From a virus, in the IMG/VR virus record IMGVR_UViG_3300044998_000005, positions 1 through 20,091 of that record: 20,091 nt of DNA, one strand, 5' to 3'. Below the pieces are notes generated by a model. That model was not told where the DNA came from, did not search any database, and worked only from the letters and a program-made list of their open reading frames with translations. This document shows, piece by piece, positions 14,464-19,711 of this stretch. The translations under genes were made by a program, and so were the position numbers. The number at the start of each line of letters is the position of its first letter. The stretch's first letter is position 1.

Positions 14464-14497
14464 AAAAACAAAGACCCCGGATTTTACTCCGAGGTCT
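14464..14497 (-). terminator. Rho-independent terminator after the scaffold gene
   Basis: AGACCTCGGA and TCCGGGGTCT form a 10-bp stem (one U-G pair) around GTAAAA on the minus strand, followed by TTGTTTTTGG. On the plus strand the same position is a C-A mismatch. It closes the packaging/membrane/scaffold transcript 40 nt after the scaffold stop. Confidence 0.85.
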
Positions 14498-14536: not shown

Positions 14537-15373
14537 CTAGCGACGGCTACCGAGATTGGCGAGACCGGCGCTGATCTTGGCCACCGAGGACTTTTCGGTG
14601 CTCCGGCCGGGAACCTGCTGGCCGGTCGGCAGCTTGCCGGACCCCGGAGGCTTTCCGCCGCCAGCGGGCGTCGAAGACTTGAAAGCCATCGGATACTTGG
14701 TCTTCATCTCGTTGACCAGTGACTTGATGGACATTTCGTTACCGCTGTTGTCGAGACGCACGTTGTTCTCGGCATCGACAACCTTGACCGTGTAGGTGCC
14801 GTCTTCGGCAGCCACGACCTTGGAGAACTTGCGCACCAGAGGCATGATGAGGTCGAGACCGCCATCGACGGTGCCCGCTTCCGCCAGAGCGGCAGCCGCA
14901 GCCGAGTCGATCATGTAGGTCTCCAGCGATTTGCGCATGTTGGCCAATTCGCTGTCCTTCTTCGTGGTCACTTCGAGGACGCGCTTGTCGAAGTCCTTCT
15001 TGATGGCTTCGAGATTGGTGCGAACCTCCTTGCCGCCCTTGACCTGATCGAGCAGTTCGGTGACCTTGGTCTTCACGATCTCGGGGATTTTGGTAATATC
15101 GTCGCCGATTTCCCAACCGACTTCGGTCAGTGTGGAAGTGACTTGATCGAGGATGGCGCGGCGCGTGGCATCCTTCCTGTTGTCTTCCTGACGCTGAAGC
15201 CCGACCGTCTTGAGCTTCTTGCTGGCACCAGTGTAGGCTTCGGCCAGAGGCTTGATGTCGGCCTTGAGGACGAACTTGCCATTCGCCTTGTCCTCTTCGT
15301 AATATCCCCGGATGTTCTCCGGCACGATGTCGATCACATCGACGGAAGCGTTCGCAATAAAGTCCCAATCCAT
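14537..15373 (-). CDS. Scaffold-like head assembly protein
   Basis: The 278-residue protein is highly charged and helical, with a Lys/Glu/Asp-rich stretch at residues about 85-150 (KTKVTELLDQVKGGKEVRTN, then EAIKKDFDKRVLEVTTKKDS) likely to form a coiled coil. An Ala-rich helix follows at residues 152-168, and a Gly/Pro/Ser/Lys-rich tail at about 233-262 (TPAGGGKPPGSGKLPTGQQV). This composition and a place immediately before the major capsid gene are typical of scaffold proteins, which shape the procapsid and then leave. The family is not certain, since scaffolds diverge fast. ATG at 15373 has AAAGGAG about 8 nt upstream, but that site is the 3' arm of a 12-bp hairpin. No capsid protease gene is seen between portal and capsid. 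Confidence 0.72.
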   Translation of the reverse strand: MDWDFIANASVDVIDIVPENIRGYYEEDKANGKFVLKADIKPLAEAYTGASKKLKTVGLQRQEDNRKDATRRAILDQVTSTLTEVGWEIGDDITKIPEIVKTKVTELLDQVKGGKEVRTNLEAIKKDFDKRVLEVTTKKDSELANMRKSLETYMIDSAAAAALAEAGTVDGGLDLIMPLVRKFSKVVAAEDGTYTVKVVDAENNVRLDNSGNEMSIKSLVNEMKTKYPMAFKSSTPAGGGKPPGSGKLPTGQQVPGRSTEKSSVAKISAGLANLGSRR

Positions 15374-15443: not shown

Positions 15444-15986
15444 TTAGTCGTTGCCATTTCCGGGGGCAAGTCTCATCCCGGCCAACGGGTCGCCCGCGTC
15501 CTTCTCAGGCATCTTCGACTCAGTGGGTTCAATGAGAACTTCAGGCTCAGGAATATCCCACGGCCAATCAAGGTCGAAAATGCCGCGAACAGAGCGGGAT
15601 TTCCTGCTCTTGAACCGGAGTTTGGCCTGCCCCTTGCCCTCCCGCAAAGCCTGCTCGATTTTCTCGGCTGTCTCCGAACTCCACGGCAGGACATAGTAGA
15701 CCGGCACCCCGCCATCCAAGGGCTCCAGCAAGACATGAATAGCCTTTCCTGTGACCGGCTTGAAACCGAGGATGTTACCCTCTTCAATCACATTGAACAT
15801 CATGGCAGGCTTCGGCGTACCCATGGCGACGGACATCGAGGCGTAGGTAGCCGGAAAGCCTATAAAGAAAACCACCATGGCAATCGGTTTGTAGATGGTC
15901 TCCGTTCGGGCGTGGGTAATGAGCCAAGCCATGACTCCGAACATGGTGATAAGCAACAAGACTGCAAGGGCATGTTGCCAGATCAT
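15444..15986 (-). CDS. Two-helix membrane protein, third gene of the ExbB/ExbD-like cassette
   Basis: I do not recognise this 180-residue protein. It has two hydrophobic segments at residues about 5-24 (HALAVLLLITMFGVMAWLI) and 33-53 (KPIAMVVFFIGFPATYASMS), joined by a short positively charged loop (THARTETIYK). A soluble domain follows at about 65-125 with strands KAIHVLLEPLDGGVPVYYVL and a helix SETAEKIEQALREGKGQAKL. The tail is Pro/Asp/Glu-rich. The Arg/Lys in the short loop suggest the loop is cytoplasmic, which would place both ends in the periplasm. ATG at 15986 overlaps the stop of the ExbD-like gene (ATGA), with GGAGG 9 nt upstream, so it belongs to the same translational unit. An accessory subunit of that membrane complex is the best guess. 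Confidence 0.72.
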   Translation of the reverse strand: MIWQHALAVLLLITMFGVMAWLITHARTETIYKPIAMVVFFIGFPATYASMSVAMGTPKPAMMFNVIEEGNILGFKPVTGKAIHVLLEPLDGGVPVYYVLPWSSETAEKIEQALREGKGQAKLRFKSRKSRSVRGIFDLDWPWDIPEPEVLIEPTESKMPEKDAGDPLAGMRLAPGNGND

Positions 15987-16627
15987 CTTCCTGTACCTCC
16001 GCCATTATATGCATCGGGCAAAGTCAACATACCCTTCAGTTCAATTTCCCTGTTACCCACCAGCTTGCGGTAAACATTGTTGATACTGTCCATATCGACA
16101 TCGCCATTCTCATCGACCACAAAACGGACTCCTGTCTTCTCCTGACCGTCTGCCTTTATGATGATCTTGGTCACAACGATGTTATCAATGGAGTCATTGC
16201 TGTGCCGGTTGCGCTTGGAGATAGCCATGTCAACAGTCATGGGAAACGTGGCATTGGCGCACCTGAAGCACTGGACATTGATGATGTACTCACCGGGCAC
16301 AATGCCGCGAGTGAAAGCGTCCTCATAGTTGATCGGCGTGGCATCGGGAAGCTGACCACGGTCGTCCCGCAGCAAGTTCCATATGACGCCAGCCTTGTTG
16401 CTGTAGCCTACAGGACCGGGCTCACCCGGCCCCATCATCCACAGGTCCACATCAATGTCGCCGTTCGGCCAGACGATATGAGCTATGATGTCGCCAGCGG
16501 CCTTGATCTCCCCCTTGCCGGAATCAGCCTTGGGGTTGAGGCTCTGTATCATTACGACAGTCAGGATAGCGAACATCGAGACCACGATGAGGGAATATGT
16601 TCGGAAAAGAAGGTATGTGCTCTTCAC
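15983..16627 (-). CDS. ExbD/TolR/MotB-like single-anchor periplasmic protein
   Basis: The 214-residue protein has one N-terminal membrane helix (residues 6-28, LLFRTYSLIVVSMFAILTVV) and then a periplasmic part. This is the layout of ExbD, TolR and MotB, and the gene follows an ExbB/TolQ-like gene with a 4-nt overlap (GTGA), as those pairs do. The helix lacks the acidic residue that carries protons in the known partners. The periplasmic region (about 43-135) contains NGDIDVDLWMMGPGEPG, LLRDDRG and GEYIINVQCFRC, a pattern like the DUF2135/YfaP beta-sandwich (DVDL...P.G...DD...G.Y.V). Cys120 and Cys123 form a CxxC. A second strand/helix segment (151-190) follows. Start is GTG at 16627. The ExbD-type call rests on layout and partner rather than on a clear domain match. 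Confidence 0.6.
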   Translation of the reverse strand: MKSTYLLFRTYSLIVVSMFAILTVVMIQSLNPKADSGKGEIKAAGDIIAHIVWPNGDIDVDLWMMGPGEPGPVGYSNKAGVIWNLLRDDRGQLPDATPINYEDAFTRGIVPGEYIINVQCFRCANATFPMTVDMAISKRNRHSNDSIDNIVVTKIIIKADGQEKTGVRFVVDENGDVDMDSINNVYRKLVGNREIELKGMLTLPDAYNGGGTGR

Positions 16628-17205
16628 GGAATGTCCCCCCGCATGACGTTTTCGAGCTTTGCCTCCTCCAGCAATTCATCCTCGGCTTGCGCAACCACGT
16701 CAGCCGTGTGCTTGACGACGACGAAATTCACTTCGGTCCACAGCGCGAACATGGCCCCGATAATGGTGGTGCTGATCTCGACACGAAGACCGGCCACCAT
16801 CTGAACGGCAATATGCTTGATACCTTCGACACTGCCGAAGTTGCCGGTATTGACACCGGACAGGGAAAGCATAAGGCCATAGAGGGTGCCGATAAGACCG
16901 AGGAACAGCATCCAGCCCGCCGCGCGTTCAATCCATTCCATCTGCTTCAGACGCAGACTGCCAATCAACTTCTCATCATGGATATGGCTGCCGTTCAGAT
17001 TGTTGGCGGCTCTGTTGATTTCCCACGCCTTGCGCATTGTGCCAATCCAGACCAGAACGAAGAGTCCAGCCGTGCCGTAGTTAAGTCGGGTTGTGTCGGC
17101 ATGGAACAGGGTGTTCAGCCATCCGGTCTGATAGTCAGTGATGGCCAACCAAGCGATTGCCAGCGCATTCAGCAGCACCAGCTTGTAAATCACGATATGC
17201 TTCAC
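16624..17205 (-). CDS. MotA/TolQ/ExbB-family membrane channel protein
   Basis: This 193-residue protein has hydrophobic segments at residues about 4-22, 44-58, 97-117 and 142-164. The last two carry the family signature. FLGLIGTLYGLMLSL (101-115) corresponds to the LGLLGTVWGIM motif of TolQ/ExbB, and VAGLRVEISTTIIGAMFALW (137-156) to the following GIAEAL..TA.GL.AAIPA helix, including the conserved polar Thr146/Thr147. A charged cytoplasmic segment lies between (62-95), as in the family. Members form pentamers that use ion flow to move or energise a partner inserted in the pore. The start is GTG at 17205 with AGGAGAG upstream; the stop overlaps the ExbD-like gene. Finding it between small-terminase-like and scaffold genes is unusual. 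Confidence 0.78.
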   Translation of the reverse strand: MKHIVIYKLVLLNALAIAWLAITDYQTGWLNTLFHADTTRLNYGTAGLFVLVWIGTMRKAWEINRAANNLNGSHIHDEKLIGSLRLKQMEWIERAAGWMLFLGLIGTLYGLMLSLSGVNTGNFGSVEGIKHIAVQMVAGLRVEISTTIIGAMFALWTEVNFVVVKHTADVVAQAEDELLEEAKLENVMRGDIP

Positions 17206-17414: not shown

Positions 17415-18143
17415 CTACCTTTCTATCCTCGTCTGTCTGGTATTCTGTGCCGCAACAGGCTTGGCGTCCACGTTGGTTGGCGTTATGTCAATCATGTTTC
17501 TCTTCTGGTTCTCCAGAGTTTTTGCCGCTTCCCTCTCCCATGCGTCCAGATCGGTCGCACGGGCGGGCAGCACGGCCACACCATGATTGATGTTTCCGCT
17601 GATGGCGATTTCAGACTTCTCGCCGTACTTCTCACGCATGTTGGCCTTGTACCAGAACTGGGTGAGGCCGGAGTCATAGACGCGCTTGTACCCGGTAATC
17701 TGTCCCTGATAGGTAATAGGCTCCAGAGTGCCGTCGATGACACGATGACGAATCTTTTCTTCCGCCACGAACATCAGGAAGATGTCCATGGCCATCTGCC
17801 AGTTACGGGCGAAATCCGGGAACTTCTGCCGGGCCAGATACAAGGCGCGTTCACCGAGGCCAGACGCAATCTGAGCCTTCCTGAAGCTGCCGGTCTTGGC
17901 AAGAACAGTCAGGAACTTGCGATGGCCTTCTTCCATGCGCAAATCCAACTGATTTATCGGGCGGTTCTTTTCAGGATATATGACGACCCAATCATCCTCG
18001 GAAGCGCCCATCTGCGCATATTCGTCCGGCTTCTCACGGGGAGTCAGCCTTACGGGAACCTCGGGAGCGGGCTGTTCAGCTACCTCTTCAATCTCCCACG
18101 GGTCCGGCTCAATCGGCAGAGTCTTCTTCGGGCGTCTTGTCAT
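17415..18143 (-). CDS. Small-terminase-like helix-turn-helix protein
   Basis: The 242-residue protein has a disordered, Pro/Glu-rich N-terminus (residues 1-40). A helix-turn-helix follows at about 74-120: HRKFLTVLAKTGSFRKAQIA, then SGLGERALYLARQKFPDFAR and NWQMAMD. After this come a long helix (IFLMFVAEEKIRHRVIDGTL) and a strand pair around EPITYQGQITGYKRVYD that leads into LTQFWYKANMREKYGEK. The order HTH, central helix, G...Y.G hairpin and ...Lk...P.kY matches small terminase subunits of several siphophages, which bind pac/cos DNA and feed it to the large subunit. A gene placed after the portal is unusual. ATG at 18143 has only a weak AAGG about 9 nt upstream. Confidence 0.65.
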   Translation of the reverse strand: MTRRPKKTLPIEPDPWEIEEVAEQPAPEVPVRLTPREKPDEYAQMGASEDDWVVIYPEKNRPINQLDLRMEEGHRKFLTVLAKTGSFRKAQIASGLGERALYLARQKFPDFARNWQMAMDIFLMFVAEEKIRHRVIDGTLEPITYQGQITGYKRVYDSGLTQFWYKANMREKYGEKSEIAISGNINHGVAVLPARATDLDAWEREAAKTLENQKRNMIDITPTNVDAKPVAAQNTRQTRIER

Positions 18144-18168
18144 CTGTATTTGCCTTGTTCATGGGCTT

Positions 18169-19650
18169 TTAGCCCTTCTTTACCGAATTATCCACGTTTG
18201 CGCCAGCAGAGCCATCGACGTTGAAACCTGTCGCAAACGGAGACTTGATGGTCGGCTCGTCCTCAAGTTCCCTGACATTCTCATCATTGTCGAAGTCGTC
18301 AGCCAGAGCGCCACGGCGCTTCAACTCGTCAATGAAATGCCTGCGGGAGATGTCGCGGTTGCGGCGAGCCTCGGCCAGAGTACGCAGATCAATATCCTTG
18401 ACATCCTCCGGGCCGAAATCCGTGGCTATCTTGACCTCGAACTTCTTGTTACTCAGGCCCATGAGGTCAGCCGTAATCCACAGGGCGGACTCCACGGCGT
18501 CGATGAACCGGAAGGTCATATCCTGCAACGGGCTGGTAGCCTCGGCGCTATCGAGCGCACGGGCCGTAGCCGTCTGGCCGCCCGGACGCTTGCGCAGGAA
18601 CTCGGCACCGTAGGCGGCCATGTCCTGCTCCAGCTTTTCGAGATCCTTGGCACCTGCCTCGATAGCCTTGCCGGAGTGTTCGACGTAATAGAACTTGCCG
18701 TTCTCCGCACGGGTCGCAAGCAACTGCCGGGGACCAATCACCATTACGTCATTGTTCGGCGTATCGTGCGCACCGGACACCGCCAGCATCGGGAAGCGGG
18801 CAACCGTGAGGATGTTCCGCTGATCCGACATCGACTGCCAGTGCGCGATATTAAGATAGGCGAGATCTTCCAGAGGCGGCTTGCCGGTCATGTTGCCGTC
18901 CTGATTCGCGTAGAAAGTCACCCATGGAATATAGTCAAGGCCGGTTTCCCCGCCATCCACAGATACCCACACCGACTTCTTGGTGCGCTGGTCCGTGCGC
19001 TCTTCCAGAAGCTCCCACCTGCCGGGGGACAACACGCGAATGCGATTGACGGCGGTTTCCGTGAAGCCCACACGTTCAACGGATGTTTCCATGATGCGGA
19101 TGTGATCCGGCTGAAGCACACCGTTGACAGTGGTGTACCCGATGAAGATCACGTTCTCGGGCGAGATGAGGGACCAGTACGGACGAACGCCCTCATTCTG
19201 GTCATCGGCCATGGTGCGCTGCCTGCCGTCCGGCATCATGGTAAGGCGCGGCATCTCGATCATCACATGGGCGAAAGACTTGGCGATGCCTTCACGGAAC
19301 CACGAACGGCAGAAAACATGCAGGTTGTTGGACTGCATGTCCACATCAGTCAGGAACTCCTCAAGCTCTTCCGGTGCGTCCTTGACATACACCTTGTCAG
19401 AAAACGGTTTGCCCACAAGGGCATCGAGCGTGAGTTCAGTCATGTTCAGAAGGGTAGTAGTATTCAGGCGATCCCGATAGTTCGGGTCCGACTCGTGCGG
19501 ATGCTGAGGCAGATATAGCTTGCCCGCCGTACGCATGGCGGATGTGCCACCGAGCAGCGTGTTGATCATCCTCCACTTGGGCAGCATGAAGTCATATGCC
19601 GCGCTCGTGGTGGATGGGTCGTTCGCCTTCTTCTCGTCATACAAAGCCAC
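18169..19650 (-). CDS. Portal protein (DUF4055-like)
   Basis: The 493-residue protein matches the DUF4055 portal family. It has PKWRMINTLLGGTSAMRTAG and LYLPQHPHESDPNYRDRLNT near the N-terminus, then TTLLNMTELTLDALVGKPF, a stem/wing region around GLDYIPWVTFYANQDGNMTG with LEDLAYLNIAHWQSMSDQRN, and a C-terminal helical segment GGQTATARALDSAEATSPLQ. It forms the dodecameric ring through which DNA is packaged and released. GTG at 19650 is preferred over TTG at 19656: GGGAG then lies 7 nt upstream, whereas it abuts the TTG. The C-terminal end is Asp/Glu-rich and disordered. The gene follows the large terminase, as usual. Confidence 0.87.
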   Translation of the reverse strand: MALYDEKKANDPSTTSAAYDFMLPKWRMINTLLGGTSAMRTAGKLYLPQHPHESDPNYRDRLNTTTLLNMTELTLDALVGKPFSDKVYVKDAPEELEEFLTDVDMQSNNLHVFCRSWFREGIAKSFAHVMIEMPRLTMMPDGRQRTMADDQNEGVRPYWSLISPENVIFIGYTTVNGVLQPDHIRIMETSVERVGFTETAVNRIRVLSPGRWELLEERTDQRTKKSVWVSVDGGETGLDYIPWVTFYANQDGNMTGKPPLEDLAYLNIAHWQSMSDQRNILTVARFPMLAVSGAHDTPNNDVMVIGPRQLLATRAENGKFYYVEHSGKAIEAGAKDLEKLEQDMAAYGAEFLRKRPGGQTATARALDSAEATSPLQDMTFRFIDAVESALWITADLMGLSNKKFEVKIATDFGPEDVKDIDLRTLAEARRNRDISRRHFIDELKRRGALADDFDNDENVRELEDEPTIKSPFATGFNVDGSAGANVDNSVKKG

Positions 19651-19711
19651 GGTCAATCTCCCGTCTACATTCTGGCATGTTTACCACTCACCCGTCCCCG
19701 GTTCAAGTCCC

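Follow-up and report, generated by a model that had tools for sequence, protein, structure and literature searches.

Three adjoining genes on a virus genome fragment, here named P1, P2 and P3, very probably encode a machine of the proton-motor type, built from a ring protein, a plug protein and a third subunit. The fragment (the window, meaning the whole stretch of 20,091 bases analysed) is the IMG/VR virus record IMGVR_UViG_3300044998_000005. Our best explanation of the trio as a whole, held with even confidence, is a proton-driven machine of ring, plug and P3, most likely serving superinfection exclusion. The known proton-driven 5:2 motors act in nutrient uptake, the stability of the outer membrane, motility, secretion and defence against phages. 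Phage records annotate the trio genes as hypothetical, and the open-access papers we searched held no description of a phage-borne ExbB/TolQ/MotA motor, covering only host Ton/Tol systems, hosts and Zorya.

Gene layout in the window

All recognisable genes of the window lie on the minus strand, in the order portal (phrog_145), small terminase (phrog_4044), a 63-aa gene, P1, P2, P3, scaffold (phrog_206), major head protein (phrog_212) and then tail genes (Table 1). A sequence-only reading of this DNA had placed the three genes between small-terminase and scaffold genes, linked by two 4-nt overlaps. Their coordinates, strand and overlaps were confirmed (P1 ends at 16624 and P2 starts at 16627; P2 ends at 15983 and P3 starts at 15986), as was their position, through the phrog_4044 and phrog_206 assignments and the 63-aa gene in between.

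Table 1 Features of the window discussed in the text.
Feature	Coordinates	Strand	Remarks
P1, ring protein of the MotA/TolQ/ExbB superfamily	16624..17205	-	193 aa, four predicted membrane helices
P2, plug protein	15983..16627	-	214 aa, one membrane helix and a periplasmic beta sandwich
P3, two-helix hairpin and OB-like domain	15444..15986	-	180 aa, predicted periplasmic
63-aa gene directly upstream of P1	17221..17412	-	Kept within this phage group (family f13)
Small terminase subunit gene	17415..18143	-	phrog_4044, E 2.2e-16
Head scaffolding protein gene	14537..15373	-	phrog_206, E 1.7e-23
Terminator-like stem-loop after scaffold gene	14472..14497	-	10-pair stem, then T run
Thr107 codon of P1 (GLIGTLYG)	16885..16887	-	Aligns with TolQ T145 / ExbB T148
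Glu143 codon of P1, last core helix	16777..16779	-	Window's clade only; one helical turn before pore Thr147
Thr147 codon of P1	16765..16767	-	Aligns with pore Thr of TolQ (T178) / ExbB (T181)
Thr10 codon of P2	16598..16600	-	Site of plug Asp in 94/97 relatives

The trio is probably transcribed together with the small terminase and scaffold genes, because consensus scans of the stretch from one to the other returned no minus-strand terminator-like site and a single weak promoter-like match (9/12, inside P2). The stem-loop after the scaffold gene is the probable end of this transcription unit and is followed by a promoter-like site at 14458-14431, before the head gene. These scans, which report consensus matches only, support the earlier proposal that the trio is expressed with packaging and scaffold proteins. 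The tail genes include the types DUF2460, phiJL001 Gp84 and BR0599, which we take to be named after alphaproteobacterial phages and prophages, and these gene types suggest an alphaproteobacterial host for the window phage.

Gene order around the packaging genes differs between phages. In the window group (window positions 17415-19656) the portal gene comes first and the small terminase gene after it. In the related Bordetella phage CN2 (locus L017, 6001-9481) the small terminase gene instead lies ahead of that for the large terminase, and a head-morphogenesis gene lies between portal and scaffold; the window has no such gene there.

Predicted ring, plug and third subunit

On sequence comparison, P1 is a true member of the MotA/TolQ/ExbB superfamily. 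The window protein itself scores 21.0 bits against PF01618, short of the curated cut-off of 22.9, and two relatives pass (36.6 bits for L161 and 34.9 bits for L024). A family profile (A8), built from 75 P1 proteins and searched against solved chains, picks up solved motors and little beyond them, matching MotA (1.1e-8), the further PF01618-type chain 8vvn (2.8e-7), ZorA (7e-7), TolQ (6e-6), ExbB (1e-4) and PomA (6e-4). The motifs GLIGTLYG and STTIIG, read earlier as signature helices of the superfamily, do line up with GLFGTVWG and ATALG in the helices of TolQ. When P1 is aligned to TolQ from the surveyed genomes, Thr107 and Thr147 fall on both pore threonines, which in TolQ stand beside the essential plug Asp (PMC12215075). 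Position 147 is Thr in 72 of the 75 aligned rows, and position 107 is Thr in 56 and Asn in 19. We call the relationship to TolQ remote because TolQ reaches no more than 22-26 bits with the family profile. P1 would form a ring of the pentamer type.

P2 is a plug-type partner by architecture and not a member of the ExbD family. Its AlphaFold2 model (pLDDT 89) has a membrane helix (residues 3-30) followed by a sandwich of nine strands and, at the C-terminus, a short helix, so the single anchor and periplasmic domain described in the sequence-only reading are present, but its comparison with ExbD, TolR and MotB goes no further. Window P2 matched no Pfam family at E up to 1, PF02472 (ExbD/TolR) included, and the same search returned nothing for its relative in L024 and only DUF2135 at 0.017 for that in L161. 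ExbD, TolR and MotB require an Asp in the anchor helix. With no match to the ExbD model, an anchor without the needed Asp and a periplasmic domain shaped like TerD, P2 was rejected as a protein of that family. Scans of P2 and P3 against Pfam, PHROGs, NCBIfam and PADLOC gave nothing useful, and Foldseek found no match under 1e-3 for either model.

The sandwich of P2 aligns with TerD chain 3ibz at a VIA-align Z of 11.8 (146 residues, 4.6 A) and with four further TerD-like chains at Z 9.0-10.5, the five alignments spanning 134-147 residues. Among chains other than TerD, one from a radial-spoke protein reached Z 8.9 and the others at most 6.5. Comparison of P2 with eight TerD proteins by hhalign gave a probability of 1.7%, and PF02342 (TerD), searched in 27 genomes with the trio, failed to find P2. 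Because these sequence tests lend no support to homology, we claim likeness for the fold alone: as modelled, the periplasmic domain of P2 appears TerD-like in fold only. We know of no TerD protein that serves as the head of a membrane motor. Only one of the 27 genomes, that of Rhizobium esperanzae (genome G004), has a PF02342 gene above the cut-off and also a prophage trio (L100).

The model of P3 (pLDDT 86) shows two helices and a small OB-like domain, bearing out the two helices and soluble domain described earlier. Structural matches of the OB-like domain score Z 5-7.6, and since values up to 7.6 are within the range of common arrangements, the likeness concerns fold only. Both ends of P3 would be periplasmic by the positive-inside rule, because the loop between the helices is basic (mean 2.7 K/R, 0.2 D/E).

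The trio resembles ExbB-ExbD and TolQ-TolR (PF01618 / PF02472) in its two core ring helices, its pore Thr and the same order of neighbouring genes, and P2 shares with ExbD and TolR the single N-terminal helix, with the helix Asp present only in the wider P2 family. It differs from them in having a third subunit and no TonB- or TolA-like partner, and its P2 lacks an ExbD domain and, within the window's clade, the plug Asp as well. A MotA is the best profile relative of P1, but the peptidoglycan-binding OmpA domain and flagellar genes of MotA-MotB systems are absent. Zorya shares a phage-related setting with the trio, and ZorA is among the solved structures closest to P1; however, P1 lacks the long ZorA tail, P2 lacks the OmpA-like domain of ZorB, and the trio is carried by phages rather than directed against them. 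PADLOC matches of P1 were weak and to the ZorA core only, and none of the effectors ZorC, ZorD and ZorE was found among the window proteins scanned. GldL-GldM, a system of Bacteroidota, has an acid on the ring helix and none on the plug helix, as in the window's clade only, while its periplasmic parts differ from those of the trio.

We infer that the trio is a proton motor of the 5:2 type, distinguished by a new axle head and an additional, third subunit. A ring of P1 would surround the helices of a P2 plug dimer in a 5:2 assembly (the models here are of single chains), and proton flow would drive rotation, as in ExbBD, TolQR, MotAB, ZorAB and GldLM. The periplasmic work would be done by the beta sandwich of P2 and the OB-like domain of P3. 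Protons would be carried by the plug Asp in most relatives and probably by ring Glu143 in the window's clade.

Occurrence in phages and bacterial chromosomes

The trio is one conserved module whose genome region varies by phage lineage. When phage records were searched by tblastn with P2 as query, Rhizobium and Sinorhizobium phages were returned in which P1 and P3 are its neighbours, and scans of IMG/VR yielded >100 relatives. The scan patterns cover the periplasmic domain, and the conserved membrane Asp is therefore no artefact of the search. All three genes are present in 78 of 89 distinct phage loci, always in the order P1-P2-P3 (78/78), and P1 and P2 lie no more than 20 nt apart in 57 of the phage loci. 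Within the window's clade P1, P2 and P3 are under purifying selection (dN/dS 0.07 to 0.31). The recurrence of order and sequence in scores of loci, together with low dN/dS, argues that the trio is not a chance arrangement. Two further marine loci (L084, 877-2738; L087, 3135-4998) differ from all the others: a P3-like gene precedes both the protease and P1.

The carriers are unrelated phages, comprising 16-3-like phages, Pootjesviridae, RHph_I1_18 and the window group. In 16-3-like phages P1, P2 and P3 are split by a GIY-YIG or HNH endonuclease gene or by other small genes, and in Pootjesviridae the trio lies between gyrase and late sigma-factor genes. Outside the window group the trio has genes for a protease, an exonuclease or a sigma factor as neighbours and is distant from the head genes. 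Because the trio is found elsewhere in other lineages, its place in the packaging block is peculiar to the window's phage group, namely the window's clade and the loci L024 and L055. The outcome that the sequence-only reading named as counting against it, related phages with the genes single and at random places, was half seen: their place varies, but the genes stay together.

A gene for a secreted HtrA-like protease of the trypsin type, whose H, D and S motifs look intact, lies directly upstream of the trio in 36/89 phage loci. Examples are L002 (7102-7812), L003 (6842-7489) and L011 (7235-8134), and the protease also precedes the trio in probably marine phages (L071, L083). Genes for SbcD-like or related metallophosphoesterases (exonucleases) occur shortly after the trio in two unrelated groups, the Pootjesviridae (L013-L015) and the 16-3-like loci. 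GIY-YIG or HNH genes inside Rhizobium phage trios (L002, 8234-8992; L004, 8231-8968; L003, 8800-9342) are inserted between P1 and P2 or between P2 and P3; homing endonucleases are often found in conserved gene blocks.

A genome scan returned 239 relatives, and all three genes were present in 78 of the 80 kept. Some of these chromosomal relatives are Rhizobiales prophages. The majority are trios that stand alone, found in Azospirillum, Kiloniellaceae, Geminicoccaceae, Granulosicoccaceae and further genomes, mainly of Alphaproteobacteria (including Rhodospirillales). The stand-alone trios have no conserved neighbours and are surrounded by housekeeping genes; a defence-island setting was looked for around the chromosomal trios and not found. 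P2 was present in 63/385 sampled alphaproteobacterial genomes and in 2/121 Rhizobiaceae, once in a prophage trio and once with a stop codon inside the match. A tree of P1 and P2, made by a quick method without bootstrap, places most phage trios in one group, split from the chromosomal group by a branch of support 100, with trios of the Pootjesviridae type more distant.

Position of the acid and possible function

The plug Asp is present in 94/97 P2 proteins, chromosomal ones included, and the three exceptions all belong to the window's clade. At this site T, A or G stands in these three and in three more close relatives, also of the clade (Thr10 in the window). Exactly these six window-clade loci without the plug Asp have Glu at position 143 of P1 (6/75 rows), four residues, or one helical turn, ahead of pore Thr147. 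Glu143 is kept throughout the six members, even at identities of only about 41%, and by alignment TolQ has a Glu at the neighbouring position, equivalent to P1 142. Two loci outside the clade that share the portal-to-scaffold position, L024 and L055, retain the plug Asp, indicating that the swap was later than, or independent of, the move into the packaging block. Since the working acid of GldLM is on the ring (GldL Glu49; PMC8986121), a motor of this kind can run on a ring acid. By this analogy, the proton carrier of the window's clade is probably Glu143 of the ring instead of the plug Asp, and we lean towards a motor that is still driven there.

The clade has a long stem branch in the tree of P1 and P2, and the acid swap is a single event on that one long branch, which leaves room for coincidence or a dead motor. 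The trio of this clade could act passively, as a ring in the membrane, or could poison other motors, as the loss of an Asp conserved in all other relatives and the long stem branch would allow. Decay of this kind is opposed by purifying selection across all three genes, by a pore-facing Glu gained and kept by all six members and by the retention of both pore threonines, and we consider a dead or passive motor unlikely. Poisoning of host TolQR or ExbBD through mixed complexes, raised in the sequence-only reading, is far less probable still: hosts do have TolQ and TolR, but the trio is a complete ring-plus-plug set with its own plug in every lineage and nearly always its third subunit as well, and P1 is only remotely related to TolQ by the family profile. 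The same applies to help with packaging, also proposed earlier, or with virion assembly at the membrane. In its favour are the operon shared with small terminase and scaffold in the window's group and the matching position in L024 and L055; in most relatives the trio lies apart from the head genes, and we regard such a role as highly improbable. Whether the trio represents a widespread, unnamed family of phage-borne three-protein proton motors, in which the acid moved from axle to ring in the window's clade with function kept, we judge to be evenly balanced.

We hypothesize that the phage uses the trio to alter the host envelope during infection, a job favoured by two periplasmic heads, the secreted protease upstream, the unrelated carriers and the TerD-shaped head. 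The protease points to the periplasm, and the spread over unrelated phages, untied from head genes, fits an accessory trait. Superinfection exclusion, the shutting out of other phages, is our leading guess for this job, though a tentative one. TerD-containing Ter systems of phages are thought to act against superinfecting phages (PMC7824862); as this precedent reaches the trio through the fold of P2, it is only a lead.

Two other envelope roles appear less probable. The motor might help lysis by disrupting the outer membrane or its tethers late in infection, alone or with the secreted protease, in keeping with an endolysin gene within about 5 kb in about 28/89 phage loci from several groups and with the predicted expression of the window trio alongside late genes. 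Yet most of these endolysin neighbours come from one group, the trio lies away from lysis genes in Pootjesviridae and in the window group, chromosomal trios occur in bacteria that do not lyse themselves, and Rhizobium phage RHph_TM3_3_14B has the trio together with its own endolysin and an adjoining Rz-like spanin (phrog_1403, 4e-6), so we consider a lysis helper unlikely. The example of RHph_TM3_3_14B also disfavours the trio as a stand-in for the Rz/Rz1 spanin; a PF03245 probe found no spanin in nine trio phages but is insensitive, having missed the one detected with PHROGs. Alternatively, the phage copy could be an auxiliary version of the chromosomal trio that maintains envelope or periplasm function in the host while infection proceeds. 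The stand-alone chromosomal trios, without conserved neighbours and in housekeeping surroundings that fit an envelope function better than defence, are consistent with such upkeep, as is the HtrA-like protease beside many phage trios. However, Rhizobiaceae, the hosts of many carriers, have no chromosomal trio in the 121 genomes searched, so its function is not essential there, and a well supported branch parts phage from chromosomal trios; we give upkeep about as little credence as lysis.

If the proposed motor is real, it would be a new type shared by phages and by the chromosomes of Alphaproteobacteria and some other bacteria. If the acid has indeed moved in the window's clade, this would be a natural rewiring of a 5:2 motor to a GldLM-like layout within a virus lineage, and natural versions with the acid on plug or ring would offer a rare test of proton uptake in such motors. 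Since Rhizobium phage 16-3, a classical laboratory phage, carries the trio, its function is directly testable.
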